Positions 13,788-64,000 of a stretch of 64,000 nucleotides of DNA are shown here, one piece after another (the first letter of the stretch is position 1; the number at the start of each line of letters is the position of its first letter). A program made the translations under genes and the position numbers. Source of the DNA: Lindgomyces ingoldianus (taxonomy: Eukaryota; Ascomycota; Dothideomycetes; Pleosporales; Lindgomycetaceae); contig NW_022985166.1 in the NCBI RefSeq assembly GCF_010093535.1, forward strand, positions 1,132,537-1,196,536. Reading direction: 5' to 3'. Below the pieces are notes generated by a model. It searched no databases. It saw only the letters and a program-made list of their open reading frames with translations, and was not told the origin of the DNA.

Positions 13788-14586
13788 CTAACACTTCTTC
13801 CATTGGAGATGGAGCAGCATTGAGAATTTCGTGTCTTGAGTATCCACGCCTACATACGAATCCTTAGAGCAAGTCACCACAACTTGCGAGTTGACGTTGA
13901 AGAGAGGCCCGGTGACACCGCAGGTTGCCCAAACGAGAGATTCCGTCGGAACTGATGTTGTCATCCGGTAGTTGTTGTCCACGGGGCCTTTGAAGGTGAG
14001 CATCGATGAAGCCTGTACCTTGTCAATCTCCAACGCCCCCTTGAGAATAAGAGACAAAAGAAAAATATAAACCCTAAGACGGAAGGGCAAAATTAGAACA
14101 GCAATACTTACATCATTCGACTGGCCCGAGAAGAAATAAGTCGCTCCCATTTTAGCGGAGCATCCGGACGGGAGCGACGCATAACCTCTAAAGTCCGTCG
14201 TAGCAACGGTCCAAGACCAACCTTGCGGAAAGTGCAGGGTGATGCGAACGTCGCAATTCTTGCGAGCATCGGAAGCTGCCATGCCAGTTCCAGTACCGGC
14301 CACGTACTTGGAGAAACCGAGAGAGACGACCGTTGCACTTTCGGCAAGTTCGGCGGAGGCGGAGCCTGGTGGGCAGCCAGTGCCAACCCAAGATACTTCT
14401 ATATAGAAGTTAACAAAGAAACTTGATTGAGATAAAAGGGGATCCAAGAAAGGATGGATGAAGAAGGGAAGCCGTACTTTCGACATAGACTTGGTTGGGA
14501 TCAGGAGTGTCCGCGCGCTCAGCGTGAAGGACTGGCGAAGCAGTCGCCAAAGCCGAAAGGGCCGCGATGATGGAAAGAAAGCGCAT
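13788..14586 (-). CDS. Secreted DUF4360 protein
   Basis: Three exons on the minus strand, 14586-14478, 14398-14112 and 14018-13788, give 208 residues. The introns (79 and 93 bp) keep phase. The first exon encodes a signal peptide (MRFLSIIAALSALATASP). The mature protein opens with the family hallmark 'GTGCPPGSAS', then 'VSLGFSKYVAGTG', 'NCDVRITLHFPQGWSW', 'FRGYASLPSGC', 'GPVDNNYRM', 'WATCGVTGPLFNVNSQV' and the terminal 'LHLQWKKC'. That run of motifs is the DUF4360 domain, found in many fungal secreted proteins; the molecular function is unknown. Cysteines are placed as in the family (GTGC, KNC, SGC, ATC, terminal KC). The long frame that reads through both introns is not the product. Confidence 0.9.
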
Positions 14587-14671
14587 ATTAGGATTCAGAT
14601 CTCTTATGATATCAGATGGTTAGGGTACTTTGCTTATCGAAATATCCCCTCATCTCCTCTCCCTGGCCTCC

Positions 14672-15959: not shown

Positions 15960-16511
15960 CTACGCAATCTTCAAGCTACCACATTTTTTCCTCATCACAC
16001 TTACCCCAAACCTCGCAGCCATCAAAGTGTCTTCACTACTTGTACACGCTTGTATCCCCAAGCTTAAGTCCTCAGATTTACCCTCGCTGCCACCACAATT
16101 CCGCATCAGTGACACCCCAAGCCCTCCAGCAGCCATTGCTAGTGTCACATCTTCCTTGCCATTTCCGCACGCCTCCAGCAAAGGAAGACCAAGAATACCG
16201 GTTTCCGTAGAGTATTCACCCGAAGAGCAGGAGCTTGTGAGCGGTAGGCCAGCGGCTACGATATCTAGTCCATCCTCCCCATAGCCACATGCAGAGGCAA
16301 AAGGAAGTCCAACAGCAATAGGCTCTACACCGTCTTCGCTTGAGTCACAAGCTGAGGTAAATGGAATGCTGAGAGAAGGAACATCCGACATTATGGAGTC
16401 TTTGCCTAACCCGCAGGTTGAGGTGAGTGGGATGCGATATAGAAGCGCTTGGATTAGGGAAGAATATCCGAAGATATCCGCCTCGATTCCTGTTCTAGAT
16501 GAAACACCAGC
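15960..16511 (-). CDS. Array of eight single-cysteine ~20-residue repeats, in frame behind the TLC-Lgt stop
   Basis: Directly after the TAG at 16514-16512 the same minus-strand frame stays open for 183 codons, to a TAG at 15962-15960. Counting from the codon after the stop, cysteines fall at 33, 55, 75, 95, 115, 139, 156 and 177, that is every ~20 residues. Each is preceded by a short hydrophobic/small run: IPLTSTCG, IPFTSACD, LPFASACG, LPLTSSCS, LPLLEACG, VSLMRNCG, LGIQACT, VMRKKCG. Most units then have an acidic spacer (GYGED, SSED, GKED). Codons differ between units although the pattern is kept, as expected for selected protein sequence. If translated alone, the first ATG is at 16391 (143 residues) and loses the first repeat. 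Alternatives: readthrough extension, splice extension, a recent nonsense mutation in one fused gene, or a separate gene. There is no signal peptide and there are no Lys-Arg (kexin) sites, unlike dikaritin precursors. Confidence 0.6.
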   Translation of the reverse strand, partial: AGVSSRTGIEADIFGYSSLIQALLYRIPLTSTCGLGKDSIMSDVPSLSIPFTSACDSSEDGVEPIAVGLPFASACGYGEDGLDIVAAGLPLTSSCSSGEYSTETGILGLPLLEACGNGKEDVTLAMAAGGLGVSLMRNCGGSEGKSEDLSLGIQACTSSEDTLMAARFGVSVMRKKCGSLKIA

Positions 16512-17921
16512 CTAGTAGACATTATTGAACCATGCGGTTGCAAAACCGAGCTGGCATATTGCAAAGACCGTTGTCACAGGGATGCCGAGCCCGCGAATGC
16601 GAGTGATGTCGGTGCGTAGAGCGTCAACAAGGACTCGGATGGACGCACTCATACCCAACGCAGCTGCTCCAGCCTGACGAGTGGATATGCATCTTATAAG
16701 AAGCATTCCAACCACCGCTCCGAGAGCGCCAATATTAAGAGCTGAAGAGACAAGCGGAGCTATAATGAGATTCCTGGCTCCGCAGCAGCCGCCAAAGTAG
16801 CACCCCACTCGTCCAACGGCTTCGCCAAGTAGCATAGCTATAGAGGCACATGCAAGTAGACTCTCTCTATCTTCTCCGGTCAGAATAGAGTAAGGCGAGA
16901 ACAAGATTGTGGACATTGCGGCCAAGAACCCAGACAGAAACCAGAAGCCGGTGGTGGATAGGAACCCGCGAGGCGTGAGACCACTAATTCCGTGACGAAG
17001 TAAAATATCCGGAAGTCGGGCACCAATAGAAGCAGCGAGGAACGCTTGGCTGATGAGTCGTTTTGCGGCGGAATGAGAAGTTGTCCAATCGATTGTGGAA
17101 GTAATAGCAAACAACTTGAGAGTGAGAGAGGTAGAGAGTGTGTATGCCATAGTGACGAACAGTCCATAGGCATGTAGCGTCACGCTAGCAACTTTCACAA
17201 CCACTGTCCCGGTTTCTGTTCGCCGGGTCGTGAGGATCTGCAATCTCACCCACTCATTAAACACCATCTTTGCGATGAAAATACCATATACGGTTAGGAT
17301 TCCGGTACAACTCCAGAATTGTCTTGGTTCATTCAGTTCTTTTAAGTAACTCAGTGCATACATCCAGGCTGGTACCCGAAGAATCATCAAACCCCAAGCG
17401 TTGCATTTCTGCACTGCTATCGCCACTTTGCTATTCTTCACGTGGTATCCGTGATGGCTAAGCGCACAGCTCGCAGAGCTAAACAATTCGGTAGCAAGAC
17501 TGGCATAGATTATGTATACGGGTTCCATCGGCAGACTAGGCGTGGAAAGATGGTAGACCAATTCCGCGAGAGCGGCAAAGTGATGATATATGTACCAAGG
17601 AGAATGAGAAAGACGGCTGAACTCAGATGCCCAAAGTGTTCCTCGGGAGAGAATGCAGATTTGACCGGGGGCATTGCTTGATAGTGGACCTGAGATGGAA
17701 GATGCTGCGAGGCATATCGGTGTGGAGCAGAGGGTTATGAGCCAGCCAATTAAGAATGCGAAGTAAGCATTGTCTTTTTGTAGGGAGATTTCTTTTGCGT
17801 AGAACGTAGGATTAAATATTTTGTGTGCGGAGCGGAGAGCGAGCTCGACTGCGAAGTACAGGGCTAGAGCTGTGAGAAGCGTTGGGACGGAAAGAATGCT
17901 AAAGTCTTTAGACGAGTCCAT
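16512..17921 (-). CDS. TLC-domain / Lgt-like (prolipoprotein diacylglyceryl transferase-like) membrane fusion
   Basis: A 469-residue intronless frame with about 12 hydrophobic segments. Residues ~10-240 resemble a TLC domain (TRAM/LAG1/CLN8, TLCD type): a run of helices with the characteristic paired histidines in 'SPWYIYHHFAALAELVYHL' (His113-114) and 'CALSHHGYHV'. Residues ~285-465 resemble the Lgt family: 'RLPDILLRHGISGLTPRGF', 'LLGEAVGRVGCYFGGCCGAR' (370-382), matching the 'GRIGCFxAGCCxG' signature of Lgt-like proteins, and 'RVLVDALRTD' followed by 'GLGIPVTTVFAICQLGF', matching the late arginine-containing helix. Bacterial Lgt moves diacylglycerol from phosphatidylglycerol to a lipobox cysteine; eukaryotes normally lack that pathway. 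Family membership rests on these motifs, and the activity is inference. The same frame continues past its TAG stop into a cysteine-repeat array. Confidence 0.8.
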   Translation of the reverse strand: MDSSKDFSILSVPTLLTALALYFAVELALRSAHKIFNPTFYAKEISLQKDNAYFAFLIGWLITLCSTPICLAASSISGPLSSNAPGQICILSRGTLWASEFSRLSHSPWYIYHHFAALAELVYHLSTPSLPMEPVYIIYASLATELFSSASCALSHHGYHVKNSKVAIAVQKCNAWGLMILRVPAWMYALSYLKELNEPRQFWSCTGILTVYGIFIAKMVFNEWVRLQILTTRRTETGTVVVKVASVTLHAYGLFVTMAYTLSTSLTLKLFAITSTIDWTTSHSAAKRLISQAFLAASIGARLPDILLRHGISGLTPRGFLSTTGFWFLSGFLAAMSTILFSPYSILTGEDRESLLACASIAMLLGEAVGRVGCYFGGCCGARNLIIAPLVSSALNIGALGAVVGMLLIRCISTRQAGAAALGMSASIRVLVDALRTDITRIRGLGIPVTTVFAICQLGFATAWFNNVY

Positions 17922-31599: not shown

Positions 31600-34500
31600 C
31601 TAAGTTTTGAAAGACCCAACGAGGTGGACTTTTGTGACTGGCTCTTCTGATTCCCTTTCCTTTCCGTTGGCACCTGCACCTACATCATCGTTGCGGGAAA
31701 TCTCCTCAAAAGAGCGCTTGACACCACCACCCGTTGTCGGTGTTACAGTGGTCGTGGTTCCGATCGCAGGGCTACCTGGGACGGGAGTAAGGGGTTCGAC
31801 ACTGGGTCGTGCGGCGTTTTGAGGCGTTTGGGGCCGGGTGATGGAGAAGGATGTTGAGCGGGGGAGGCCGGCCATGTCGGGTGTGAATTTGTGTGGCTGG
31901 GAGGGCCACGAGGGAATGTCGATGGGCCAATTCGAGGATGAGGTAGTCGGAGACAGATTGGATGCCGCCACGACGGCCGCGTCGCAAGCAGCAGTAGTAG
32001 CTGCGGATATCTGGGCAGCAGTCGTCGTTAGCGCATCCTTCATTTCGATGTCAATTGCCATTGACTGGCTGCTGCCCCTGCGCTCCTCCTTAATAAACGC
32101 GGCCTGCTTGTTATCCTCCGCCCTGGGAGAAATGAAAGCATCTCTTAGTACCGGGATAGTGAGCAGGCTTGCCAAAAGGTTCTTTTCGTCAACCGCGAGA
32201 TTCGCTGCTTGATCTGGTCTTACGAAGCCTTTGATTGTGTTGTCAATCTTTCGAGTTGCATGTGTTTTGTCAGGAGATTCCTTGATAAAGGTTTTTCGGA
32301 AGGCCTCAAGTTGGTGAATTACTTCTTCGCTGATGTCGAGCGGGTATCGACCAGAGTTTCGGGGGTTTGGCAGATGGTTAGGGCCTGATACATCAGTCTG
32401 CTGAGAAGACTGATGTGGCGACGAAACAGAGGTAGCCTGCGGAACATTTGGTGATGAACTCGTGATTTGGGTTGAATTGTAGGGCCGACCGGAAGCGCTA
32501 ATATAAGGGCTTGCTCCCGCCGTAGCGTATTGGTTGCCATAGGGACTTGCCGTGGAATATCCGCCATAGGGAGTGTACGGGCCGCTCGTCGGCATCAAAA
32601 CACCGTACTGGCCGCTCGATGCCGCTACTGAGTTCGCGGGAAGAGATTGTGAGTTGGCAGTGGGATATGGATGCGGAGGGTTCGAATTCACTTGTCCATC
32701 GACGCTCTTCCCTCCTGCCCACGGCGACGCATACGGCGACGCGTGGGTGTTGGCTTGCGGCGCGGGCTCGGCCGTAGTATTACGCGCGAGGCTAGGTGGA
32801 AGGCGAGGGCCGGCATTTGGAGCAGGAGCTTGTGGTACGCCGTTGGGAGGAGCTACAGGTGGGGCCTGTGGATAGTAGGAATTTGATGCGTATTGTGGAT
32901 AGCCATTTGGATGAGGGTAGTAGGCTTGTCTTTGTGCTTGGTTCACAACTGGCGGGCTGACTTGCCTCTTCCGCCTCTCCTTTTCAATGGAGACGTTGGG
33001 ATCGAGCTTCCACTGATAGCCCTTGCCCTCCTTATCCCCCTTTACAAAAGCGTCATGGCCAATAAGATTGTGCCTTATACTTGACTGCCATCCAGTTGTC
33101 GACGTCCTGAACTTGTAATATGGGTAATGCGTCTCAATGTATGTGTAGAGTTGCTGGAGGTTCATGCATTTGTTGTCAGTGCTGGATATTGCCTCATGAA
33201 TCAGCACGACATAGTTTTGGCTAGGTCGCTGCAGCTGCTCTTCCGTATAATCTGATTCCTTCTTTTGGGGAGAAGGTGATTTCGTAGGCTTGCTGGGTTT
33301 CGTAGCCCTTTTCTCCTCAGGGCTTGCAGCGCCCCCGGTCTTCTCTGTTGTTTCTCTGATATCTCCATCGTCATCCTCGCCCAGCGTCGAGTTTTTACGA
33401 GGGCGTGCAGGCTTTGGCTTGGTGGTTGGAGTGGATAGCTCCGTTATGTCGAGACCCGCGGCTCGTGCCTTTTCTAACTCCTTGCCATACTTTGCAAGCT
33501 GAGAACGCTGTCGCTTCGACATCATCCCGTCTTTAGGCGGCCGACCTGGACCTTTCCGCTTCACCAAGGGCTGCCCAATCAGAATGTCTGAAAGACCATG
33601 TCTTGCAACAAACTCTTTCGTAATAACTCCTTCCTCAGCGTCGGAGGAGCCTTGTATTTCGATAGCTGGCCTCTTCGGTTGGGTTGGACCGGCGTCTTTG
33701 ACGACCTTGGTTGGCTCCAGTTTCTCTTTAGCTTTCTCCTTGGATGGTTCTTTTGCGGGGGCCTTTGCCTTCTCTTTCTGTTCCTTGAGAGTCTCCTTCG
33801 GATTTCCTTTAGGGGCTCTCGTAGGGGGTTTTGGAGGCGAAGGAAGGCGGATTGCCTTGCGTGCACGCTCCGTCTTTGCAGGTTTCCGAGACTGCGGAAG
33901 TGGTGTTTGCGGTTTAGGCTTGTGTTTAGGCATCTTGAACTTCAGAGTTTGCTTCTTACGGTGAGGTTCTGGGGTAAAAGGCTCCTCCTCGTCTTCGTCA
34001 CCATCCCCAGAATCATAGGCCTGATCAGGCGGGAAGTGGAACACATGCTTTGGATTGGCGTAAAGCTCCTCACCGTCAGAGTCGTCCATGTCTTCCTGGC
34101 TTTCGGGTTCTCCCTGTCCGTTTATGAAGGCGAAACTCATTGGCCGAGACGATGAGTCTCGCCGGTCGCGTTGATCTAGAGCTACATCAGGGAGTAGGAA
34201 GTTGAAGTGGACTAAGCCGATGATAATGTTGTCGCCATGATCCAGGGGGGTAGTGCTCCCCATTCCCCGGAACTCGCCCTCATGAAACAAGCCATTAGAA
34301 CTGAGAACCTCGAGCTCGAAGCAACTATGCTCGAAATTGTAGGCAATCTTTGCGTGTTGTCGCGAGATACCTTTCGGCCCTCTTGCACCGGTAGGCTCAG
34401 TGATGCGCTGGGGGTGGATAGGTACTAGCGGACATTCGTTCGGATTTTCAGGGACTTCGCTATTAAGCTGCTCCTGCTCTGGGACTTCGGAGAAGGCCAG

Positions 34501-35763
34501 AAGAAGCTCATCCTGTGGCGCATGCTCGACTGGTTCCTCCTGGCCAGGGGAATCTTCGTGGCGGTGAGCAGATGACCCACTAAGTGATTGAGAGGCAGCG
34601 CTCTGGCGGCGCTGCTGGTACGCTTGGGGCATAGCGGCCATCGGGGCGTTGACAATGCCGCCTACCTCGCTGACGACACTGCGGGCTGAGCCAACTACCT
34701 GCTTCCGTTTCCTACCTCTACCCTCCAGCGCGGCGCGTGCGCGCTTGTCGTCGCCCTGTTCGTGGTAGCGTTTGGCCAAGGCGAGACGGCGCTGGTCTCT
34801 GTGGGCCAGTGTGAGATTGCGACCCAGTATAACCGAGTAGGTGTGCATGTAATAAGAGCCATCGGGGAATCGCAGACGCGCAAAGGCAGACATATTGTTA
34901 TTGTTCAGCAGTGGCTGGTGGCCGGGAAGGGGGCCCTCTGGGAGGTCGTCTATAGTGGGGGTGGTGTTGTGTACGGGCTGCTCGAGCGGGGCAGCCGCGA
35001 AACCAGATGGGTAGTCGACGGGGGGGGCGCCTTCCATAGTGTCGAGCTTGGAGGGAGTTTCGGTGTTGGTGGTGGCAGGCGCGATGGCAGAGTCGGAAGG
35101 CGCGACATGGTTATTCGCAGGCGCATTGCCACTGTGCTCTGACAGTGGGTCGCTCACGTCGTCCATGCCGTCGCCGTCATGGTGTAAGGCAGAGCTGGAG
35201 CGGATGACGAAGTGGGTGTGGAGTTCGAAGTGTCCGTGGATGTGGCCCTTGCAGGTGTTGAAGTCTGTAGTGGATGCAGTGCGATCTATGCAGCGGTCAG
35301 GAGTGTGGCCCACGCCTCCGCGGGAGTGGCACTAGAGAAACCTACCTGCAAAATCAGAATAACTCCGAGGGTCACCGAATTGGTCGTAGTGATTTAGCTG
35401 GTCGAGCGCGAAGGGGTCGGCGATGGAGATGTCGAGGTTGTTGGTCGGCGTTGTCGGCCCATGCAAGTGTTGAGGCCGGGAGGCTGATGCTTCCGCACGC
35501 GGCAAATCCCGGCCCAAGCCTACGGCACGTGCGTTTGCGTCGCTACCCTCAACTCCGAGGGTAATCGGCATCCCGCACTCAGCCTCCACCATCCCGATTG
35601 AGGTACTCTCCGTTCTAGCGATCATCTGTTCATCGTTCTGATACATAACCACACACTGTATTGGATTACACCAACACGCCAAGTCCATCTTGTCGAAGGT
35701 AGAGTAGCGAAAGTCCCACGTGAGGGTCTTAAGTGGGAGCGACCGGTCTTTGGTGAGAGTCAA
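31600..35763 (-). CDS. FHA-forkhead transcription factor (Fkh1/Fkh2 type)
   Basis: Two exons, 35763-35346 and 35285-31600, joined over a 60-bp intron (GTAGGT...GCATAG), give up to 1,367 residues. An FHA domain begins near residue 272 ('FARLRFPDGSYYMHTYSVILGR') and resumes near 444 ('KGISRQHAKIAYNFEHSCFEL') after a ~140-residue basic/acidic insert, as in other filamentous-fungal forkheads. The forkhead winged helix lies at about 824-910: 'RPSQNYVVLIHEAISS', 'YPYYKFRTSTTGWQSSIRHNL', 'KGKGYQWKLDP'. Lys/Pro-rich AT-hook-like 'KRKGPGRPPKDG' precedes it, and Gln/Ser/Pro-rich sequence follows. The protein is a nuclear DNA-binding regulator of cell cycle and development in the family. The start is uncertain: 35763 lies inside a tandem repeat, and Met at 35688 is an alternative. 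Confidence 0.92.
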
Positions 35764-46004: not shown

Positions 46005-48084
46005 AAAACGAATAGTGAATATGGGAAGCGCAGAATCCTAATAAAGACACCAGTCTATGTCCTCTGAATGCTCAACCTCATTCATGCGACGGCGTAGTTC
46101 ATGTTCCTGGGACGGGGCGAAATGCAGAACGGCTCATAGATACGCGTCATAGGCGGAATTTTCCTTCCTCACTAGACATCGGCTCCATTCAATTGGTCCC
46201 CAATCTCTAACTATGTTATTATTTGAGACGCTGATTCAATTCTGCAAGGGCAGGGTACGAGGTCATAAGCAATTATCTTGCTGCAAATAAATAGAGCATT
46301 CAGAGGATACAGACTCTTCCACAAAATCCGACTCGAATTTGAGTCATGTTGGTTTCGGAAGCCTTGAGACCAAGGAAGGTAGGGCGGCGAGAGGAAGTAC
46401 GACGTGATGGCCAACACTGAGATCACCCTAGCATTTACCCATCCTACTGAGGTATGTCTGCCCGACACATATAGCTTAAACTGGGTGTATATTAGCCGGA
46501 GTAGGATCTTCCAGGATCTATCGATCAAAGAGACAGCATAGTTGGAAAAACTGCATTTTCAATGCTAAAATACCCCAAGTAGCTTCCATAAACAATACTA
46601 TTTTAGCCTCCTAGACCTGTTTACAGGCTTCTGGGATCCGCTAAACAGATACTGCCGTCTATGTTCATGTATAACCGTTGTGCGACATTGCTACTGACAC
46701 CTGGTGCATCATGTTCGCGTGGGAAATTACTGCCATTTGACGGCAATCGGCGTTGGAATTCTCCGCATATATCCATGTGAAGGTTCTGGGTACGTACCCA
46801 ATAGAAATGGAACGGTATTTAATTGTCCAAGCGTGGGGCTGTTTTGTTGTATAGTGTTTGGGTGAGTACCTGGGTGCTACAATCGGCTAAGGTTTTGTTT
46901 GGGTGTGGAAGGGGTTCCATTGTTGACGGTGGGATTAAAGGATTGCGAATTTAGTTACAGTGGTCTTGATTGTAGTGTTGGTGGTTTGGAGGCATTTATT
47001 GAATTGGGGACGGGCTACTTAGCGAAGAAAGAATTATTAGGTGAGGTGGAATGTTCTAGGACGTATTTGGAACTATAGAGGGGAGATGAGTGACTTGGGC
47101 CTTTGTATTTGTTGATTTATATAACAAGGGCAGTATGGGCTCAGTACCCCTCTTTGTATGAGTGCGTAGAACCAATATGTAGACGCGCCGCACTGCACGA
47201 CACCTCAGTTGTAGGATGGAAAGATTTCCGCTACGTATGAAGTAGCTAGATGCTAGACGCAGTGTATTGCAAAGACAAGACCACAGAGTAACGAAACAGA
47301 GAATATGAAACAGGAAGGCCTCCCCATTTGAGAAGAAAACGTTCTTGGTACAACTGTGGATGTTGAATATCGGGGGATTAGTTTGTCAACCTTGATGCTG
47401 GGTTAAGAGGTCTGCGTAGACGACGAGAATCCTGTCATATCCGTTGCATGTGCCAGCATGCCGTAGCGAGAATGCAGTAATGAGAATCGAAGGCCTGCAA
47501 GGACGTGAAGGCCAAATGTGAGGTGACGTTTGCATCCCTGCCGTGGATCGGCTCTCCAACATCGGCCCGAAACGCTTGGCGATTCACATCTGGGGAATTG
47601 GAAATGCTCCACGGTTGCCCTACCCGAAATTGCTGACCCCCTCCACCCTTCACGAAAAACTATCCGTCAAGTGAGCTGACATTTGCACCTAGGTACGACA
47701 ACCACCGCCCTGAGATGCTAACAAGCCGCTCTAGGTGGTGATTGCGCAGCGATTCTACATCCACCCAGGACTTGCGCACTTTGCTTACCTACGTGATATT
47801 GGTGTTCAGCGGAAGTATAAGTTACGAATGCGGCTCACACCGTAGTCGCGTACCTGCATCAGATTGGAGGCTTGGCCTTTTCGGCCTACTCGGGAGAGTG
47901 TGGGGAAACGAGTGGAAGATCCGGAACGCCTCACCGCGGAGAGGACTACTTATGTAGCTGCGCGCTCGAGCATGCTGGATCCAACGCCCAAACTTCTTCA
48001 GCCAGGTGCAAAACGGGCTCGCCTCCATATCATTAGAAAATTGTGAGCAGGAAAATCCACCAGAAGACGATTCATATATTTACG
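46005..48084. other. Intergenic region, no gene seen
   Basis: About 2.1 kb. Frames at 46,211-46,528, 47,403-47,653 and 47,742-48,028 are short and without motifs. An ATG at 48,043 in frame with the amidohydrolase is treated as leader. Confidence 0.5.
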
Positions 48085-49441
48085 ATGGCATCATTCATCA
48101 TCCGTGACGTCCAAGTCTTCACAGGCGAGGAAATAATTCCAGAAGGCTTCGTGTATGTCCAAAATGGCAAGATCGCAGCTGTTGGACCTGCCTCAAGTAT
48201 CCCGACAACCTCTGTTAAGGTCTATTCTAAACCAGGTCACACGTTACTCCCCGGCTTTATCGACTGCCACATCCACGCCGACATGGCAAATCCCGTCGCG
48301 CTGCCCCAGGCTCTTAGGTTCGGGGTCACAACAGTCTGTGAAATGCACAACGAACTCGGAAATGTCCAGAAGTTGAAGAAGCAGACCCAGGAACCAGATA
48401 CGGCAGGATATAAAACGGCAGGCCAAGCGGCGACTATTGAAAATGGGTGGCCGATTCCCGTTATTGTAGCCCATGATAAGAGTGAAGAGACGGCGGCGGA
48501 AATCGCAAAATGGCCCAAATTGAGTAACCGCGAGAATGTGGTTGAATATTTGGAGTGGTGTAAGAGAGAGATGCAGCCGGATTATATCAAGTTGATGCAT
48601 GAGTCAGGTAAGAGTTTGGGATTCGAGTTGACATATCCAAGCGTGGAGCTGCAGACGATGATTGTGACGGAGGCAAATAAGAGGGGGTATTTGACGGTTG
48701 CGCATGCCCTATCACTGAAAGATACACTGGAGGTGTTGGAGGCGGGGGTGAATGGGTTAACGCATACCATTTGCGATCAGCCGCCAACGCAGGAGCTAGT
48801 GGAGGCATACAAGAAGAATAATGCGTGGTTGAACCCGACTTTGGCGGCGATTGGGAGCTTGACAACCGAGGGGCAGGATATTCAGGAGCGGTTTGCGCAT
48901 GATACGAGGGTGGAGGGCCTTATTGGAGAGAAAGAGAAGGGACAGTTGTGCAAGTGCATGGCTTTTGCGGTGAAGACGGGCAAGGCAGAATATGCGTATG
49001 AGAGCGTGAGGATGCTGAGGAAGGCGGGGATTGACATTGTTTGGTGAGTGACTCCGCTTCTTTTAGGAAGAAAGCGTCCGTTCCTCTTGGTGGATGTGGC
49101 TCGGGAAGTGGTAAGACACTCGGACTAACACGAATAATAGTGGGAGCGACGCAGCCGGTCCAGCAGTAGGGACGGCATGGGGACTCTCTGTCCACCAGGA
49201 GCTTTACCTCTTCGTGCATAAGGTTGGAATGACTCCGGAAGAGGCTCTGCGATCAGCGACGAGCGTCGTGGCGAGGAGGTTCAAGTTCTCGGATCGTGGC
49301 AGACTGGCGGAGGGGTTGAACGCGGATCTGCTCTTGGTTGAGGGAAACCCTTTGGAGGATATTGATGCCACATTGAATATTCGCGGCGTCTGGCGCGATG
49401 GAGCGCTTTGCAGCGCGCACAAGTCCAAAATGGGTAATTGA
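48085..49441 (+). CDS. Metal-dependent amidohydrolase
   Basis: Two exons, 48085-49043 and 49141-49441, joined over a 97-bp intron (GTGAGT...AATAATAG) give 419 residues. The start at 48085 begins 'MASFIIRDVQVFTGEEIIPEG', the usual amidohydrolase N-terminal beta-sandwich; an upstream ATG would add 14 residues. Metal-site motifs run in order: 'LLPGFIDCHIHAD' (HxH at 62 and 64), 'YIKLMHESG' (candidate carbamylated Lys), 'LTVAHALS', 'GLTHTICDQ', and 'CGSDAAG' with the catalytic Asp, recreated across the intron. The end ('ADLLLVEGNPLEDIDATLNI...VWRDG') is the C-terminal beta-sandwich. The family hydrolyses C-N or related bonds of small cyclic or amide substrates; the substrate is not predictable. 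Cytosolic, with no signal peptide. It lies just left of a decayed transposon. Confidence 0.92.
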
Positions 49442-49640: not shown

Positions 49641-52600
49641 ATCTATTAGTTGCATTAATCAGCGGAATTCCTTAGCGATTTTGCTTCTGTCTTTGTCCCC
49701 ACACAAACCTTATAGAAATTAAGACACATTAGTAATACGCCCTAAACTATGCTAATATTATTATAATATTATAAGATTTAACTACTTAATTAGAAATAAA
49801 GTTAAAGCTAACTCTTTAGTGTTAAGAAGGCCTTACTAGCATCCTACTATAGCCTGCAGAGGCACCTAACTAGGGGCAGCAGAAGCGCCTCTAGCTAAGT
49901 TAATGTGTTTAAGTACTAGTACTGTCTAACAGCTTACTGCTAAAGTAGCTGCTTAGTTATTAAAAAAGCTTAATAAGCAGGCTAGTAGTAGTAGAAGGAG
50001 AGAAGAAGCTGCAGCAGCGCGTAACTAGAAATTAGTTACTTAGGTTAATATAAAAGAGCCTCTTACGCTGTTGCTGTTGCCTACTATTATACCTGCCCTA
50101 ATTAAAATTCTTAAGTTGCTACGCGTTATGCTAGATCTACTGTTGTCGCCGCTGCTACCCTAGCAGCCCTAATATAATATAGATATAATGTATATTCTCT
50201 ATGTAAATAAGGTTAAAGTAGTAGAAAATTATAATAACTATAAGCGTGTGTTCTTTTTAATGTTATTTATAAAGGATAAAGTAATGTTGCTAATTAATAA
50301 CCTAGCGTTAATAATTAACAGCTGTAGGCACTGCGTACAGAGCTGCAGCGTTAGCTTCTGTCTAGATAAAAGAGGTGCTGCTTAGCAGTGTGTACTGCTG
50401 TTAGATTTTAGTACTATTAAAAAAGTTTAGCTATTTAAGATAGTTAATTATTACATTACTTACTTTAAAAATATATTACGCGTGGAGTTTAAAGTAGAGA
50501 TCTGTGTTTAGGTTAAAGCGCTATAAAAAGCTTTTCTATATAATTAGTTATTTAATAAGGCTTTATCTAAGCTAAGTAATAACATCCTTGTAAGCGCCTA
50601 CTGCAGTAAGCAACTGCTAAGGAAGATAAAGGCTATAGAGTGTGTAAAAGACATTAAAACAGCTATAGATTACTAATTAATAATCTACTAGATATAAAAG
50701 TACTACATTAATCTTTATAATAATAGTAGTTAATAGTGTTATATCTACTTAAGTAGTGCTTACTATAAGATTAAACTAATTAATGCAGAAGCTTAGGCAA
50801 GGTTTATTATTATAGGCAAATTATTAGCTTTATATCTAGCTTATAAAATAGTTAAGGCTTTAAAGCTGTAAAGTAATAAGCTACAAGTAAAGCCTTATAG
50901 TTAAAAGGGTAAAAAAAAAAGGTGTAATTTATTATCTAATTTAGATAAGCTAATGCTAAAGGAGCTATAGAAATAGGCAAAAAAGCAGTAATTAATAAAT
51001 TAAATAGTAAGGATAAAGGAGAATAAGGCAGCTTAAGCAGAGCAGCAAGAGTTTTAGTAATTCTAGATGCAGTAGATAAGGCTTTAGCAGATGCTAGCAG
51101 CTCTGCTAGCAGCTCTGCTAGGCGCCTTCTTAGGTGGGCAGCTGCTGCTACTGTACTTATTGTCTTTTATTATAGCAGCGCCTCCTTAACTAGTGACCCT
51201 ATTAATGCTACGTACAGTAAGTCTTCTAGTTCTGTTGTTAAGCCTAGTAGCTAGAGCTAGTAAGGTGGATACCTGCGCAACTGTAAGAGAGTTCTTTTTC
51301 TAGCTTATAAAGCAATAAAAGGAGAAAGAGAATAATATTAACTATATTACTGCTAGTAAGGTAGTAATTAAGTAGAAGTAGATAATTAACAACCTCTGCC
51401 TTATGTTAGATCTAGGTAATAAGCTTTATACTGTTGCTGTTAGCAGGTTTAAACTTAAGGATAGAGTAGTTTAGCACCTCTGTGAGGATCTCTGTCGCTT
51501 TAAGCAGCTATATTAAAGAGCAAATGGCTTTGTAGAGCTTAGGGGGGTAGCAGGAGCAGCAGGAGCAGCAGGAGCAGGTGGTGAAGTAGGTAGGAACAGA
51601 AGTTAGATAGCGCATAGAGTTAACTAAAGTAAATTTAAGTAAATTTGCTGTTTATATAGGCTCTCTAAGCTCTAGCTGTACACAATCTAACTCCTCCTGC
51701 TTAATATATAACCCTCTAGCAGCATACTAAAAGTGTTTCCTAGCAAATCTATTGCACCTGCTCTTACAAACAGCAGCTGCTAGGAAGGCCCTAAAATTAC
51801 TATTAAAATAATGCTGCATAAACACATAGTTTCTTTAGATCTATGCCTTAAGTACAGCAAATGTTAGCTTAATTAGGTTATAGTTAGGCAAGTATAGTAG
51901 CAGGTAGTGTACTAAGTAGCCTGTGTCTTAGATAACCTAAGTAACCTTATTATTTATATAAATAGCAACGTTATTAAGTACAATAACTATGTGCTTAGGG
52001 CTGTATGTTGCCTAGAGGCAGGGGATAAGACAGTTTTAAATCTAGTTAAGGAAATCCTTGCAATTATAGTAGCCCTTTTTAATAGCTGTATAAGGCAGGT
52101 AACTGTGGATTGTATATGCTAGCAATATTGCGTACGTACTGCCTCTAGAGATGCTCTGCGCGTACTAGGCAGCGTAACTAACAGGAGCGTACGCGTAGTG
52201 CCTCTAGCTAGTCTTCTTATTAAATATTAACTTATCTAAAAACACTATATTATTAGCAGCAAACCTCTTTATTAATTAATAGTAACACTTATAAAGCTCC
52301 TTACTATAATTAATAAAGAAAGGCTTTAAAGTTTAGCAGCTTTAACTGCACTTTTTTAAAAACTTAGAGATAGTTAACTTATCTACCTTTACACCTCTTT
52401 CTACTAGCAACTAGTGTTAAATTTTATCTAGATACATCTACTTTAAGCAAACTAGCTTTTTAAACAGCGCCTTTGCGTTGTTCTTACTAATCTTAGGTGG
52501 CTGCTCTAGCCTCTTGCTAGCAGGTTTCTATACGCTGCTGTATTTTCTTAGATTATCTAGCATGTTGTACACAGCAGTCTTGCTATAGTTCTTGTAATTA

Positions 52601-52981
52601 GCAATTAACTAAGGCTCCTATTTAAGCTAAAGAAAGTAATAAATATTTAGTTAAGTTTAATCTAAAAGGCCTTAACTACTACAACAACACTGCGCTAACA
52701 GCGCTTAACAGGGAAGGCAAGGTGGTAGGCAAGATAAGACCCTATAAGCTTAAAACATGGCAACAGTGGGCGCAATAACCTAAGAGAGACTTCTATAACA
52801 CTAAAAGTTAGCTTTATATTTATCCCTAATTAGGTAATTAAAATTTTATAATATAACAATAATTTTAGCTTAATTTAAGGCGCAATATAGGCCTTTAGGT
52901 GATTTGTTTAGGGTATGTTGTTAGGAGAAGAAAACATGTGGATGTGCCAAGAAATTCCGCCGATTAATGCAACTAATAGAT
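49641..52981. mobile_element. RIP-decayed TIR transposon with Tc1/mariner-type transposase remains
   Basis: The borders are marked by ~35-bp inverted repeats at 49641-49675 and 52947-52981 (core ATTAGTTGCATTAATC, with two transition differences between arms). Inside, the sequence is AT-rich with stops in all frames. On the minus strand, roughly 52,640 to 51,770, a broken frame still reads like a DDE_3 transposase: a 'RLEQPPKISKNNAKALFKKL' helix-turn-helix, 'ERGVKVDKLTISKFLKK', later 'HIVIVLNNVAIYINNKV' (the VLDN aspartate is changed to Asn), and 'LLLYLPNYN' before 'LTFAVLKA', the NPIE region. At 3.34 kb it is longer than a simple Tc1 element; the left half (49.7-51.7 kb) is unrecognised and may be a nested insertion. 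No clear target duplication. Confidence 0.8.
51770..52640 (-). pseudogene. Broken Tc1/mariner DDE_3 transposase
   Basis: Remains of a transposase on the minus strand within the TIR element. Order is preserved (DNA-binding helices, then catalytic core, then the NPIE-like end), but many codons are TAA or TAG and at least one catalytic Asp is lost. Coordinates are approximate because no single frame is open. Confidence 0.65.
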
Positions 52982-53088
52982 ACTGTGCACGTTGAAGGCT
53001 CGCTTAAGGCTGCTAGAAATGTGGCCCGAGTCAACCTAGCAAGCGTCAAAGGGCAACCTCCAACCCACGACGCATCGGAGCACCTTCG

Positions 53089-54429
53089 ATGCCCTATCAA
53101 CTTCCCACAGACCCTTCGATTCTAAATAGTGATCCTCTTGGTATTCACGATAGCGACGACGCCCGTCAATTTGAGGTCCTTGACACGCTCCTCGAGACGG
53201 CCATTATCCGCATCACCTCAAATACGACCGCCGTCGATATCATCCCAGGCCTCGTAGAAGATATTGCCTACACGATCCATGGCAATGGCACTCTAGACGC
53301 TTCGCACCTCCGCGACTACCTCCTCTCAAAAAACAATGCTGACTCTGAGAGCTTTGCCTTCCTGCTGTCAACAGCACGAAGCTTGTCGGAGCACTTCCCG
53401 GACCATACCTTGGATACTTTGAGCAAGGACGGGGACGAAATAGCATGTAATGGAGCGCAGGTGAACGCCCTTCTGGCACACCAGTTCTTGGGGACGCTTG
53501 CTCGGCCTGAAGGCACTTCGTGGGGCATACCCTGCTTCACTGACTGGTTCGCCGGCAACCCAGCACATCGGCAGGCTGTGGACGGCTACCTTAGCACAAT
53601 TCTTGATCACTTTACCCAGGGAGGCTATCCAGAGACGATGGAGTTCACTTTCTCTATGTATACTGCAGACGGAATGCCTGATCCCTCAGCCTGCGACAAG
53701 CTCCCGAACCTCCACCTCCACGTCGTCTCAGAAGAATCTGAGCCTTCCATGGCCACCGGCGAACCCTTCGTCCTCGTCGCTGCAAACTCGCAGCCAGGAC
53801 CCGGTGCCACGGCAACCCAAGAGGAACGGCTCCAGTCTGCCTCCCCCGCTCTCAGCACCTCCGCCCTTTTTACGCCAGTCTTGCCCGACCAAGCTGCCGT
53901 GGTCACCTCGGTGTTTCCCGTACATGCAGCGTGGAAAGGGCATAATCGCGCTGCGCGGCTAGAACGTTTGTTTGGTGTTGAGGAGAGGCCATGGAGGCAC
54001 TACATCCTGGCCGACGCTCTGCAGCTGGATGACGCCGAAGAGGAACATGACGGGCTTAATGACCTACAACTTGGCAGAGTAGAGAGGGAGGCCAGGAAAC
54101 TCTTTGCGGCATTTATAGGTGTTAGGAAGATGCAGGACCGTTCATCAGCAGCAAACAACACTTGCGTTGTTGAGGCTGGGGCATGGGGATGCGGTGCATT
54201 CGGGGGCAATGTGCTTATCAAGACTGTCTGCATGATGATTGCATCCGCTATCACTGGTGTCGAGGTGCATCTTACACTTCTAGAACAAAGGGATGTGGAC
54301 ATCGACGCCATCACCGCGCTTTTGGGGAGTAATTTTACGGCGAGAGAACTCTGGAAGCGCATTTCGAGCCCCGATGTGCGGAGCTGCAGGACGATAAATG
54401 ACTTTATGCATCATCTTGGCCTTGAATGA
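53089..54429 (+). CDS. Poly(ADP-ribose) glycohydrolase-like protein
   Basis: Single exon, 446 residues, starting MPYQLPTDPSIL, 107 bp right of the transposon end. The C-terminal macrodomain of PARG is recognisable. The catalytic loop reads 'SQPGPGATATQEERLQSASPAL', where canonical PARG has GGG-x6-8-QEE followed by 'ISPEL': the two glutamates (QEE, about residues 245-246) are kept but GGG is reduced to G-P-G. Later 'VVEAGAWGCGAFGGNVLIKTV' matches the 'NWGCGAFGGD...K' diphosphate-binding loop. Fungal PARGs remove poly(ADP-ribose) from proteins in the nucleus or cytoplasm. The altered glycine loop may mean changed or reduced activity. The N-terminal ~120 residues are helical and unfamiliar. Composition is normal GC, so it escaped the mutation seen in its neighbour. 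Confidence 0.8.
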   Translation: MPYQLPTDPSILNSDPLGIHDSDDARQFEVLDTLLETAIIRITSNTTAVDIIPGLVEDIAYTIHGNGTLDASHLRDYLLSKNNADSESFAFLLSTARSLSEHFPDHTLDTLSKDGDEIACNGAQVNALLAHQFLGTLARPEGTSWGIPCFTDWFAGNPAHRQAVDGYLSTILDHFTQGGYPETMEFTFSMYTADGMPDPSACDKLPNLHLHVVSEESEPSMATGEPFVLVAANSQPGPGATATQEERLQSASPALSTSALFTPVLPDQAAVVTSVFPVHAAWKGHNRAARLERLFGVEERPWRHYILADALQLDDAEEEHDGLNDLQLGRVEREARKLFAAFIGVRKMQDRSSAANNTCVVEAGAWGCGAFGGNVLIKTVCMMIASAITGVEVHLTLLEQRDVDIDAITALLGSNFTARELWKRISSPDVRSCRTINDFMHHLGLE

Positions 54430-59334: not shown

Positions 59335-60290
59335 GGCGTGCCTCATAGTAGGTTTTGGGCACAGGAGGTAGATGATCTCGATGGAGAGCTTTGGGAGCGA
59401 TGGTAGCGGGTTTAGCGGGGTCTTTCATGAATGCAGCAGCGTATCGTCGACGCCTTGTTCTGCTTTCTCCCTCTATGATGTTTGATTCATTGATGGCGGC
59501 CGCGCTTCCAGCAGGGCCTAGTCTGGTGGAGTCCTGGAGCCATGTGCGAGGGACGAAGTCGGTTCCTTCGAAGATGCCATGAGACTCATGATCGATCGCA
59601 GCGGTGTGCCGAGTGGTTCTGGCTTGCTCAAGATGATCGTCATCGGCCACAAACTCTAAGACCGACGACGATCATCTTGAGCAAGCCAGAACCACTCGGC
59701 ACACCGCTGCGATCGATCATGAGTCTCATGGCATCTTCGAAGGAACCGACTTCGTCCCTCGCACATGGCTCCAGGACTCCCAGACTAGGCCCTGCTGGAA
59801 GCACAGCCGCCATCAATAAATCAAACATCATAGAGGGAGAAAGCAGAACAAGGCGTCAACAATACGCTGCTGCACTCATGCAAACCACCACTAAAATGTC
59901 TGGCTGGTACCACGCCTTCGCATTAGGCTTTATGAAAGACCCTGCGAAACCCGCTACCATCGCTCCTAAAGCTCTCCATTAAGATTATCTACCTCCTGTG
60001 CCTAAAACCTACTATAAGGCACACCACCTGTGAGAGCACTGTGAAGCAGGAAGCAGGAAGCGTAGAAGGGGGTACAGGATAGTATTAATAGACGAATCCT
60101 TGAGGAGACTCAGGGGTTCGTGAGAGGATATATATATATGTGCTGGGGCACGTGACAGGACGTTATGTGCCCAAGGCTAGGCCAAGGGCTCTCTAGGGAG
60201 AGTCCAAGGCATGTCTAAGTTAACTGTGACACCACCACTAATTCTTAGACAGCTAGAAGCATGCTATAGGGATTAAATTTATAGACCTTT
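59287..60290. mobile_element. Rearranged Ty1/copia polyprotein fragment forming a large palindrome
   Basis: The left arm (59287-59641, read on minus) and right arm (59667-60290, read on plus) are inverted copies of the same piece of a copia polyprotein, the linker before reverse transcriptase: 'FEGTDFVPRTWLQDS', 'GFMKDPAKPATIAPKALH', 'PKTYYEARHHQFSDGW', 'EFTDLYRKEAFEF'. The arms are separated by only ~25 bp. The left arm lacks about 57 bp present in the right ('SGWYHAFAL' region). The right arm is interrupted by a solo LTR at 60029-60231 and its distal end is RIP-like mutated while the proximal part is not. Apparent long frames across the junctions (such as minus 59,650-59,162) are artefacts of the palindrome. 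Confidence 0.8.
60024..60236. mobile_element. Solo LTR of 203 bp with 5-bp target duplication
   Basis: The LTR spans 60029-60231, begins TGTGAGAGC and ends TAACTGTGACA (TG...CA). It is flanked by CCACC on both sides (60024-60028 and 60232-60236), the typical LTR-element target duplication. A TATATATATATG box lies inside. It splits the copia coding text exactly at 'AHH|': the segments on either side join to the uninterrupted left arm. It probably arose by recombination between two LTRs of a small retroelement. Confidence 0.8.
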
Positions 60291-60713
60291 ATTGTAAGGC
60301 TGAGATGGCGCTTATGTGCGACGGGTATATATACTATTCTATCCTGAAAATCAACCGTTGGTTGATTATTCGCACCTTTTTGGTTGTATTGGCGGAGTAG
60401 TGCGGAGCCCTGTCCATATATATAATACTAAAAAACAGTTTACTTTACTATGTAATAATTAATAAAGTATATAATCTATAGTAAAGGATTTTAAGTTTAA
60501 TACTAAGCTTAAGCATATTAATATTTACAACTACTAGCTCTGCTAAGAGGTACAAAAAAGAAGGATTTACATATGCTATATTTTTACTATAGACATGCTA
60601 GCTAATAACGTTACTAAGTTTTTACTTTAATAGAACTATTAAGTGTTTATTAAATAACTAGGCCTTATTTCCTTAAGTATGTCAGATATGCGCACCTACT
60701 GTCAAGACAGGAG
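60291..60713. other. AT-rich decayed DNA
   Basis: About 420 bases of A/T-rich sequence with stops in all frames from ~60,420 on; no recognisable content. Confidence 0.5.
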
Positions 60714-61031
60714 TGTCACGATTGTGCACGAGTAAGGTTATAGAGCTTCACAGAGGTCTAGTTTAATTACTACGTAAGGTATTATAGTAGGTACAAGACG
60801 TTGTGTAAGAAATAAAAAAGTTTAAAAAAAAATTAGTAATTAAATACTTAGCTTAAAAGTCTAAGCACTTTAGGTATAAATTAAGCCTATTCTAAGTTTA
60901 GTTAGTGTTAAGGTAGTTTATACTTAAGTTTATATCTATGTTATATTATATTTATGTTAGACGTGCACTAATAATACTCTAGTACATATCTAATATAGTT
61001 ATGTCTAGGATCTAGAGAGGATACTGTAACA
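60714..61031 (+). repeat. 318-bp LTR, plus orientation
   Basis: Starts TGTCACG and ends CTGTAACA (TG...CA). It is an inverted copy of 63080-63397, of identical length, differing mainly by C-to-T and G-to-A transitions. No matching 5-bp duplication at its flanks (AGGAG and GTACC). Confidence 0.75.
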
Positions 61032-63079
61032 GTACCTCTTCTTTTATTAAAAAAGGAATTCTTTACATTAGTAGTTCTAGCATTAAGTTGTCTTTATTAA
61101 AGTATAGGTTTAGTTTAGATAAGTATTAAGTGTAGAATTAAGTTACTATAGAGTTTTTTTATAAGGCTTCTATAGGTTTTTATAACAGTTTATTATATCT
61201 AGTCTATTTTATAAAGTATTTATAAATATATTTTTTTTATTAAATTAAATTTATTTAACATCTTTTATAACATATTTTAGTTTATTATTTATAATAATAA
61301 GTTTAGGTAGCAGGTTTAGCTATCTAGGTAAATAGTTAAATTTAAGGGCTACTTAGCGCAGTAATAATATATAGAACATAAGGTGTATCTTTATGCTGTT
61401 AGGTAGGATTAATTAGTAAGCATATAATAAAACTATATAGGCTACTATAAAGAAGCTAAGGTTCTTTTAATTAAGTTTCTTTAATTATTAGTTTATTTAA
61501 ATATTTCTAGTGTCTAGCTAGACCTTCTTACTAGCTGCATATATAAAGGCAAGAGTTTAAAATTAGTTTATGTACTCTTATTAAAAAGCTTAAGCCTATA
61601 TAAGCTTTTTATAAACATATTTAAATATATTTTAAATTTTATTAATAAATCTATTTATGTTTATTACTTATATAAATTAATAAGTTAGTTAAGAGGTATT
61701 TAAAAGTAGTTTAAATCTTATTTAAAAGTAGTATTTTTAGTTTACTAAAAATAAGAATACTTATATTAATTTAAATGTTATGTTATTAGCTTTAAACTAT
61801 GCTATAGCTAATTATTTTACCTAGTTATTTTACTAGTAGTTTATATACACTTATAAAACTTATTTTATTATAGCATTTACATTCTTAGTCTAGCTGTTAG
61901 TCTTTAGGTAAAAAGCTGTAAATAAATAAAAGATAATTTAAAGCTATTTATAGAGTTTGTTTTAAAAGGCTAAGACAAACTGTGTACCTTTATCTAATAT
62001 AATTATGTTAGGTAGGCTATAGTAAACTTATACATATTAGTAGAATAACTAGGCTATATTAGGGGTAGTTATAAAAGAACATAGTATTAAGTGTTAATAC
62101 TTAGTTAAGTAATTAATAACTACTATAATATTTATGTACCCTTTAGATAAAAGTAGGTTTATAATAAAATTAATTAATATATCTTTTTAAGCTTATTTAA
62201 GAATTAAGAGTAGTTTAAGTAAGCTATTATACCTTTCTTAAAAAGCTTTTACTTTATAGTAAGTATAGCAACATAATACATATTAGCGTACAGTATAGAA
62301 CATGTAGGGCTAGTAGTACTCTCTCTGTAGTAGGTTAAAAGTCTTTCCTTTGCCTAGGTGTTCTTTAATAAGCAAGTTATGTATAATTTAGAGTAGTTTA
62401 ATTCTTAGTTTATTAGAATTAAAAATTATAAGTTAGTTATAGTAATATAGCTTACTATTTTAGTTTTTATAGTTAGCTAGTGTTACTTTCTTTAACTAAC
62501 TAGCGCTATTTTAAAGTAAGTTTAAAGTTTCTTAAATAAATTTATTATTTAAATACTTATTAGTAATAATTTAATTAATTATCTAATTTATTTTATTTAA
62601 GTTAAGGTCTAAAAATAGCTTAAGTTAAAGTAAAGTTTAGTGTTAAGCTTTTTACACTTCTTTTTAAGCAAAGATGTTTTAGAATTACTTTATAAAAGTA
62701 TCTAGTTTTTTTTATTTTAACTAAAATAATAAGTAATTTTAAAATTAAAATAAAATAAGTATTTAAACTAATAAGCTTATTAGTAGCTAAGTTATTTTAT
62801 AGTTGCAAAGTACTATAAGTTCTTATAGTTAAATAAGACTTATATTAGATGCACTGCATTTTCTAGTTTAAGTTGCTATTATTTAAAGTAGTGTACTATA
62901 GTAAGTAATTTTTTATTATAGATCTTATAATTACTTTTTACAGAACTTATTCTTTTTAAGAAGTATGTAATAGGCTTAATAGTCCTATCTAGCTTAGTCT
63001 AGAAAAGAACTCCTACTACTATATAGTCTAAGGCATTAGCTTCTACAAGTATTAGTAGTTTAAAGTTAAAGTAGTAGAG
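61032..63079 (-). mobile_element. Decayed Ty3/gypsy pol region
   Basis: Strongly AT-rich. On the minus strand at about 63,078-62,900 a broken frame still reads as a gypsy RNase H region: 'VEANALDYIVVGVLFQTK', 'IKPITYFLKRISSVKSNYKIYNKKLL' in two short runs, matching the family pattern DASDxAxGxVLxQ ... PxAYxSRKLxxAExNYxxYDKELL. The remainder towards 61,032 should hold integrase but is too mutated to read. The pol fragment abuts the LTR at 63,080 directly, so upstream gag and reverse transcriptase are missing. Confidence 0.6.
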
Positions 63080-63397
63080 TGTCACAGTATCCTCCCTAGA
63101 TCCTAGACATAACTGTATTAGACGCGTACTAGAGTATTATTAGTGCACGTCTAACATAAACACAACATAACATAGACATAAACTTAAGCACAAACTGCCT
63201 TAACACTAACTAAACCTAGAATAGGCTTAATTTATACCTAAAGCGCTTAGACTTCTAAGCTAAGTATTTAATTACTAATTTCTTTTTAAACTTTTCTATT
63301 CTTTATATAACATCTTGTACCTACTATAATACCTTACATAGTAATTAAACTAGACCTTTATAAAGCTCTATAACCTTACTTATGCATAATTATAACA
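63080..63397 (-). repeat. 318-bp LTR, minus orientation
   Basis: Inverted partner of 60714-61031, same length. It is less mutated (it keeps GTCACAG and GACGCGTACTAGAG). Read on minus it starts near TGTTATAATT and ends GATACTGTGACA. No target duplication at its flanks (TAGAG and TTATG). Confidence 0.75.
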
Positions 63398-64000
63398 TTA
63401 TGTTATGTTAAAACCCTAGCTAAAAATAGCCTCTAAATTTAATTTAATAAGCTTAGTACTTATATAACTCTAAGCTATTAGAGTAAGCTAAAAAGCCTTT
63501 TAAAAAGCGCTTACTCTATAAAAAAGCTGCTATGTTATAAGCTTTAAAGCTTTTTAAAAAAACTTTAAAGAATAACTTTATATTATTAAGTAGTTTATTT
63601 CTGCTTTAACTTTTATTATAGTAGTAAGAACTAAGAACTTACTAGCCTTAAAGCTTACTTAGAAGTCTAGAGATAGCTTAACTCTTTTTTACCTAACACT
63701 ACTTATAACTTATAACTTTTCTAACTTAGTAATAAAATCTAACTAACTCCCTAATCCTCTGCTATTTAATAAAAAATAGAAAGACCTACCTTTCTTTTTA
63801 CATAAGCTTTAATATAAACTTAAAGGAAATGTAAACTAATTTCTCTCTAAACACTTTTAGTTACTATATGCCTACTTTTAACTTAACTGCAATATAACAG
63901 CCTTAATTAACTTACTAATAAATAAAGATATTATTAACTTAGATTAATTTATAGCATTTTTATAAGTAACTTATAAAGACTTAAATAAAAAGTTAATAGC
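63398..64000. other. AT-rich decayed DNA to window end
   Basis: About 600 bases of A/T-rich sequence with dense TAA/TAG stops in every frame. It probably continues a transposon block beyond the window; no domain is readable. Confidence 0.5.

Follow-up and report, generated by a model that had tools for sequence, protein, structure and literature searches.

Fungi encode enzymes that are fused to their own peptide substrate, such as the borosins, as well as repeat precursors that are processed by Kex2 at KR sites located between the units. For the bacterial enzyme Lgt from E. coli, the residues His103, Tyr235, Glu243 and Asn146 were described as important or essential in the accessible parts of two reports (PMC4728403, PMC8689077). 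According to the sections available of the review among these, bacterial lipoproteins occur in bacteria only, and the strict lipobox is given there as [LV][ASTVI][GAS]C (PMC8689077). In the literature on fungal Lgt proteins, searched with most subscription journals outside the search, no case of eukaryotic Lgt-type lipidation was found among the papers listed, and no cysteine array is described in these. For the gene FGSG_06124 from Fusarium graminearum, which encodes an LGT domain, four alternative 5' splice sites were reported within intron 2, and the search by this gene name returned only this study (PMC3577648, accessible in part). Furthermore, A-to-I editing converting UAG to UGG was reported for some filamentous ascomycetes in the available text of two studies (PMC4817773, PMC11156358).

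Here, a locus of the Dothideomycete Lindgomyces ingoldianus is described that is encoded within a stretch of 64,000 nucleotides (the window; contig NW_022985166.1, positions 1,132,537 to 1,196,536). A frame of 469 codons encoding an Lgt-like membrane protein ends in a TAG (16514-16512) and is followed in the same frame by 183 open codons, as it was stated in a preliminary description of this DNA. These codons are free of any stop or frameshift. They form eight units, each about 20 residues long and containing a single cysteine (Table 1). The cysteine array probably is, or recently was, the tail of the Lgt-like protein.

Table 1. Positions of the Lgt-like frame and of the repeat units within the window.
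Feature	Position	Strand	Remarks
Lgt-like membrane protein ORF, ATG to TAG, 469 codons	16512..17921	-	relatives P0002 (35%), P0003 (28%)
Pfam LGT (PF01790) match, residues 240-446	16584..17204	-	E 3.8e-7, 30.1 bits, cut-off 24.9
In-frame TAG, downstream of the last Lgt-like helix	16512..16514	-	
Open linker, 25 codons, without Met	16437..16511	-	
Repeat unit 1, 22 codons, cysteine motif before the first in-frame ATG	16371..16436	-	
First in-frame ATG after the TAG, within unit 1, A at -3, start of 143-aa ORF	16389..16391	-	
Repeat unit 2	16311..16370	-	
Repeat unit 3	16251..16310	-	
Repeat unit 4	16191..16250	-	
Repeat unit 5	16125..16190	-	
Repeat unit 6, diverged	16062..16124	-	
Repeat unit 7, diverged	16011..16061	-	
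Repeat unit 8, diverged	15963..16010	-	
Second TAG, end of the array	15960..15962	-	

The Lgt-like ORF passes the curated cut-off of the LGT profile (30.1 against 24.9 bits) and is the sole LGT match listed in the 68-Mb genome, with one candidate scored. The frame had earlier been labelled TLC-Lgt, and the first half of this label is not confirmed. The TLC profile (PF03798) has no match in the Lgt-like protein or its two relatives P0002 and P0003 at an E limit of 10, with HMMER filters dropping most matches above 0.1, and a profile of the N-terminal half, searched against 1581 ORFs, which include exon pieces of eight TLC loci, has no match below E 0.06 other than the sequence it was built from; the best other match (E 0.061) comes from a non-TLC locus. 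Neither the sequence of the Lgt-like part alone (E<=1) nor a profile of three rows (E<=10) finds a relative in the PDB. An AlphaFold model built from three sequences was set aside as too poor for use (mean pLDDT 55.3), and a fold search of the PDB with this model returned nothing at E<=0.001. Viral contigs gave 124 pattern matches and no relative, and 69 Lgt-like loci were found in bacterial and archaeal genome contigs, three clostridial ones of which were aligned (L005, L021 and L031). Elsewhere in the window, further frames encode a strong DUF4360 match (13788-14594, minus strand, 268 aa), which is the nearest Pfam-matching frame to the array among the eight others scanned, forkhead and FHA domains (31600-35331, minus strand, 1243 aa), an amidohydrolase domain barely above the cut-off (48037-49047, plus strand, 336 aa) and a poly(ADP-ribose) glycohydrolase domain (53017-54429, plus strand, 470 aa). 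RIP-like dinucleotide ratios are found at 50001-54000 and 60001-64000, being strongest in the AT-rich segments 50001-52000 and 60001-64000 (24-34% G+C) and weaker in 52001-54000. Besides such RIP-like stretches, a CCT-alpha frame marks the genome as fungal: its best match is the yeast PDB chain 4v81_A with 847 bits, while the other eight chains listed reach at most 720.

The ordered repeat with its eight cysteines, claimed from the sequence before, is confirmed. The protein autocorrelation at lag 20 amounts to 46, whereas permutations average -73 (sd 14.6) and 0/5000 reach the observed value, while in the other five frames the best lag is reached by 31 to 935 of 5000 permutations; two of these frames are also best at lag 20, albeit weakly (177 and 935 of 5000). 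The cysteines are spaced by 22, 20, 20, 20, 24, 17 and 21 residues, and only five of 100,000 random placements are equally even. Each unit consists of a hydrophobic stretch, the cysteine, mostly small polar residues at positions +1 to +3 (Gly, Ser, Asp, Asn or Thr at 21/24 positions) and a Glu or Lys at +4, the latter in all eight units. The hydrophobicity of 19-residue stretches of the array reaches 1.07 at maximum, which is below the membrane-helix threshold of 1.5. No family of Pfam or NCBIfam contains the array. Among 5.8 billion proteins, a search limited to those that share exact words with the array (276 candidates) gave no relative at E<=10, and a second copy was not recognised in the genome. 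The locus L004 (E 0.016) was considered as a second copy and rejected, as it has two internal stops and is antisense to an isocitrate-lyase-like frame (PDB). Tandem Repeats Finder detects no period of 60 nt in the array, the 183 residues contain no KR that could serve as a Kex2 site, and a single-sequence AlphaFold model of the array was too poor for use (pLDDT 32.9). On the plus strand, a frame of 85 aa (16027-16284) lies antisense to the array with a weak period-20 signal (935/5000 permutations).

The repeat is stronger evidence than the length of the open frame. Within 200 kb sampled from this genome, real genes included, 54 of 20,839 N-free stop-to-stop intervals span at least 183 codons. 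An in-frame run of at least 183 open codons after a long run was found once in 39 cases, namely here; these cases comprise all N-free runs of at least 250 codons with a following in-frame run in the sample and the window. For units 1-5 compared at a lag of 20 codons, identity is found at 37/82, 44/82 and 22/82 of the codon positions 1, 2 and 3, compared to 28%, 26% and 27% predicted by composition; with the lag fixed at 20, unit 1 is out of register, as it lies 22 codons from unit 2, and adds little. As positions 1 and 2 are above composition and position 3 is not, the sequence in units 1-5 points to an old repeat that was constrained as protein. Identical residue pairs within these units use the same codon in 4/23 cases, with 7.6 expected at random. 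The contrast is weaker over the whole array (56, 63 and 50 of 163 at positions 1, 2 and 3), where the diverged and differently spaced units 6-8 are included. Codon usage was discarded as a discriminator: the array frame is the best of six (-0.078) and an antisense frame is close to it (-0.091).

Unit 1 is a copy of the repeat. It agrees with unit 2 at 8, 12 and 9 of 15 codon positions 1, 2 and 3; position 3 is not below position 1, and the match does not by itself mean current constraint. The cysteine motif of unit 1 is positioned upstream of the first in-frame ATG, which makes a C-terminal tail of the Lgt-like gene the simplest reading. We give about an even chance to such a gene, which would encode a membrane domain followed by approximately eight cysteine repeats and whose tail would be translated together with the Lgt-like part, now or until recently; read from the DNA sequence alone, the tail is a predicted product. 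The strong period of 20, present in this frame alone, the conserved codon positions 1 and 2 of units 1-5, the 183 codons free of stop or frameshift, the rarity of such a following run (1/39) and the resemblance of the unit 1 motif to that of unit 2, although it lies upstream of the ATG, all speak for it. Alternatively, the array might be a separate protein of 143 aa that starts at the ATG at 16391 and is made from an own transcript or as second cistron, with the in-frame adjacency to the Lgt-like frame being a coincidence. We regard this as possible but unlikely: the ATG has an A at -3, the ORF holds seven of the eight cysteines, and the lack of a clear sign of constraint between units 1 and 2 is compatible with a start within unit 1, but this reading accounts neither for the unit 1 cysteine motif nor for the 25 further in-frame codons that stay open ahead of the ATG. 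The presence of the TAG and the divergence of units 6-8 would fit a remnant in decay that has lost its translation, but this appears clearly improbable for the array, because 183 codons have remained without stop or frameshift even though the third positions of units 1-5 are at composition level. Translation of the array may, however, have been lost recently.

A search of about 5.8 billion proteins, in which 7,999 candidates were scored, gave two relatives of the Lgt-like protein, P0002 (585 aa, 35%) and P0003 (651 aa, 28%), and a repeated search using the alignment of the relatives added none (7,998 candidates scored). As judged from predicted frames, both continue beyond the last Lgt helix and have lengths of 585 and 651 aa, close to the 652 coded positions here, which speaks for a tail of the Lgt-like gene. 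Against it, their tails resemble each other weakly (11/500 shuffles). The stretch behind the TAG resembles the tail of P0003 marginally in the best of four comparisons (10/500), the others being reached by 77, 144 and 185 of 500. Upon inspection of the predicted frames, no array is visible in either tail; homologues carrying the array fused without a stop, for which the preliminary description had proposed to look, are not seen in the two relatives found.

If the array is the tail of the Lgt-like gene, the TAG would have arisen by a recent nonsense mutation or from an error in the sequence, or it would be bypassed conditionally by A-to-I editing of UAG to UGG or by readthrough. Both options have about equal weight, since a recently gained stop or a wrongly read base explains the data just as simply. 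Readthrough, as proposed earlier, is possible, although the stop context is UAG GC and differs from the fungal readthrough motif UGA CU described in the accessible text of one report (PMC4207609); UAG GC is not known to be leaky. Edited sites were reported, in the part available, to prefer U at -1 and a purine (A or G) at both +1 and +3, though not as a rule (PMC11156358). The TAG fits this preference with U at -1 and G at +1, while the C at +3 does not. The edited A was likewise found in a hairpin loop at 62.4% of sites, again not as a rule, according to the available text (PMC4817773); here, the A of the TAG is positioned in a predicted stem in 3/3 folded stretches and not in a hairpin loop. 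The genome contains four matches to DUF726, the Ame1 domain, at three places. Sordariomycete Ame1 was described to bear an MV signature in the accessible part of a further study (PMC11087585), and this signature was not seen in the DUF726 stretch inspected, in a comparison made without a reference alignment.

As a further way to pass the TAG, alternative splicing could remove it and join the Lgt-like part to the array, for which the alternative splice sites of FGSG_06124 would be a precedent. We consider this very unlikely. The intron of 66 nt proposed earlier is not supported: it would remove Gln457 and the last helix, its donor has no G at position 5, and it contains no CTNAY branch site. 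The last Lgt helix appears to be complete before the TAG, and Gln457 within it is invariant in seven aligned Lgt-like proteins, which makes an intron removing this helix unlikely as the main form. In total, seven GT-AG introns of at most 120 nt would take out the TAG and keep the frame; a GTRNG donor is present in 0/7, and the sole CTNAY branch site among them is a CTAAT positioned 8 nt before an AAG acceptor. Longer in-frame candidates of 159-255 nt have better donors, e.g., GTATGA at 16654 and GTGCGT at 16648, but Gln457 and the last helix would be lost with them, and the candidates that combine a CTNAY match with a TAG acceptor would lose the unit 1 motif, too. In conserved genes, candidate introns were identified in 9/14 gaps, the shortest with 47-64 nt; these boundaries are predicted by a filter (GTRNG, CTRAY, YAG), which renders the comparison partly circular.

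The earlier interpretation further proposed an enzyme-substrate pair. Its first part stands, as the array is real, protein-like and in frame and is best assigned to the Lgt-like gene, while the 66-nt intron is not supported and the pair is weak: equivalents of His103, Asn146 and Tyr235 are missing, 0/8 cysteines have a strict lipobox and neither of the two relatives shows a visible array. If the Lgt-like enzyme carried its own multi-cysteine substrate, the tail would be lipidated in cis or in trans and its production would be gated by the TAG; this reading overlaps with that of a C-terminal tail, and from the sequence we judge it decidedly improbable. Still more doubtful is the specific form in which enzyme and cysteine acceptors reside on one polypeptide made upon UAG recoding and would yield a peptide that bears several lipids and is made at a certain stage only. 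The C-terminus of E. coli Lgt is cytosolic and lies opposite the active site, which counts against the array as a substrate. The equivalents of Arg143 (R371), Arg239 (R429) and Tyr26 of E. coli Lgt are kept in the fungal protein, as is that of Arg246, and Glu243 corresponds to Asp. His103, Asn146 and Tyr235, however, are replaced by L329, C374 and S425, respectively, in one MAFFT alignment that is gapped near His103, and for H103 mutants of E. coli Lgt it was reported, in the text available, that complementation fails (PMC4728403). The three clostridial relatives that were aligned, out of 69 loci, likewise have Cys in place of Asn146 and Tyr or Leu in place of His103, so the loss of these two residues alone does not exclude activity. 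The motif GCYFGGCC is common to the fungal protein and these three relatives, its fifth residue being G or A in the latter.

None of the eight array cysteines is preceded by the strict lipobox (0/8). A looser, PS00013-like pattern matches 3/8 array cysteines (units 2-4) compared to 7/275 cysteines in fungal open frames and 0/12 in the Lgt-like ORF, and 64 of 20,000 residue permutations reach three matches; the matches are not independent, however, since the units are copies. The small polar residues at 21/24 of the positions +1 to +3 are consistent with acceptor cysteines as well. Self-lipidation is possible but unlikely, because catalytic residues are missing, a strict lipobox is found at 0/8 cysteines and only the looser pattern is present, in units 2-4. 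As a tentative proposal, the tail might act as a cysteine-based structural or metal/disulfide module on a phospholipid-handling membrane protein, which we rate above a role as lipid acceptor.

Should the tail be produced, this fungal protein would bear a repeat domain for which our searches gave no relative and whose appearance would hinge on one stop codon. If its cysteines were lipidated, this would constitute an Lgt-type system in a eukaryote. As in the fungal borosins, an enzyme and a C-terminal peptide are possibly encoded by one gene; in contrast to these, there is no methyltransferase domain (among the Pfam families only LGT is above the cut-off), the peptide consists of eight diverged units and a stop intervenes. 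The locus shares with PUK1 and AMD1, as described in the accessible text on these genes, a single UAG in an otherwise open frame, with U at -1 and G at +1 (PMC4817773, PMC11156358), and differs from edited genes of this type in that the A resides in a predicted stem and not in a hairpin loop, being a candidate for editing by its DNA alone. FGSG_06124 resembles the protein by its description alone, which includes transmembrane segments and an LGT domain, whereas the available part of that study describes no repeat array or stop-codon extension (PMC3577648). Compared to bacterial Lgt, the fungal protein has an N-terminal extension of about 240 residues, is encoded in a eukaryotic genome and is followed by a cysteine array behind a TAG.
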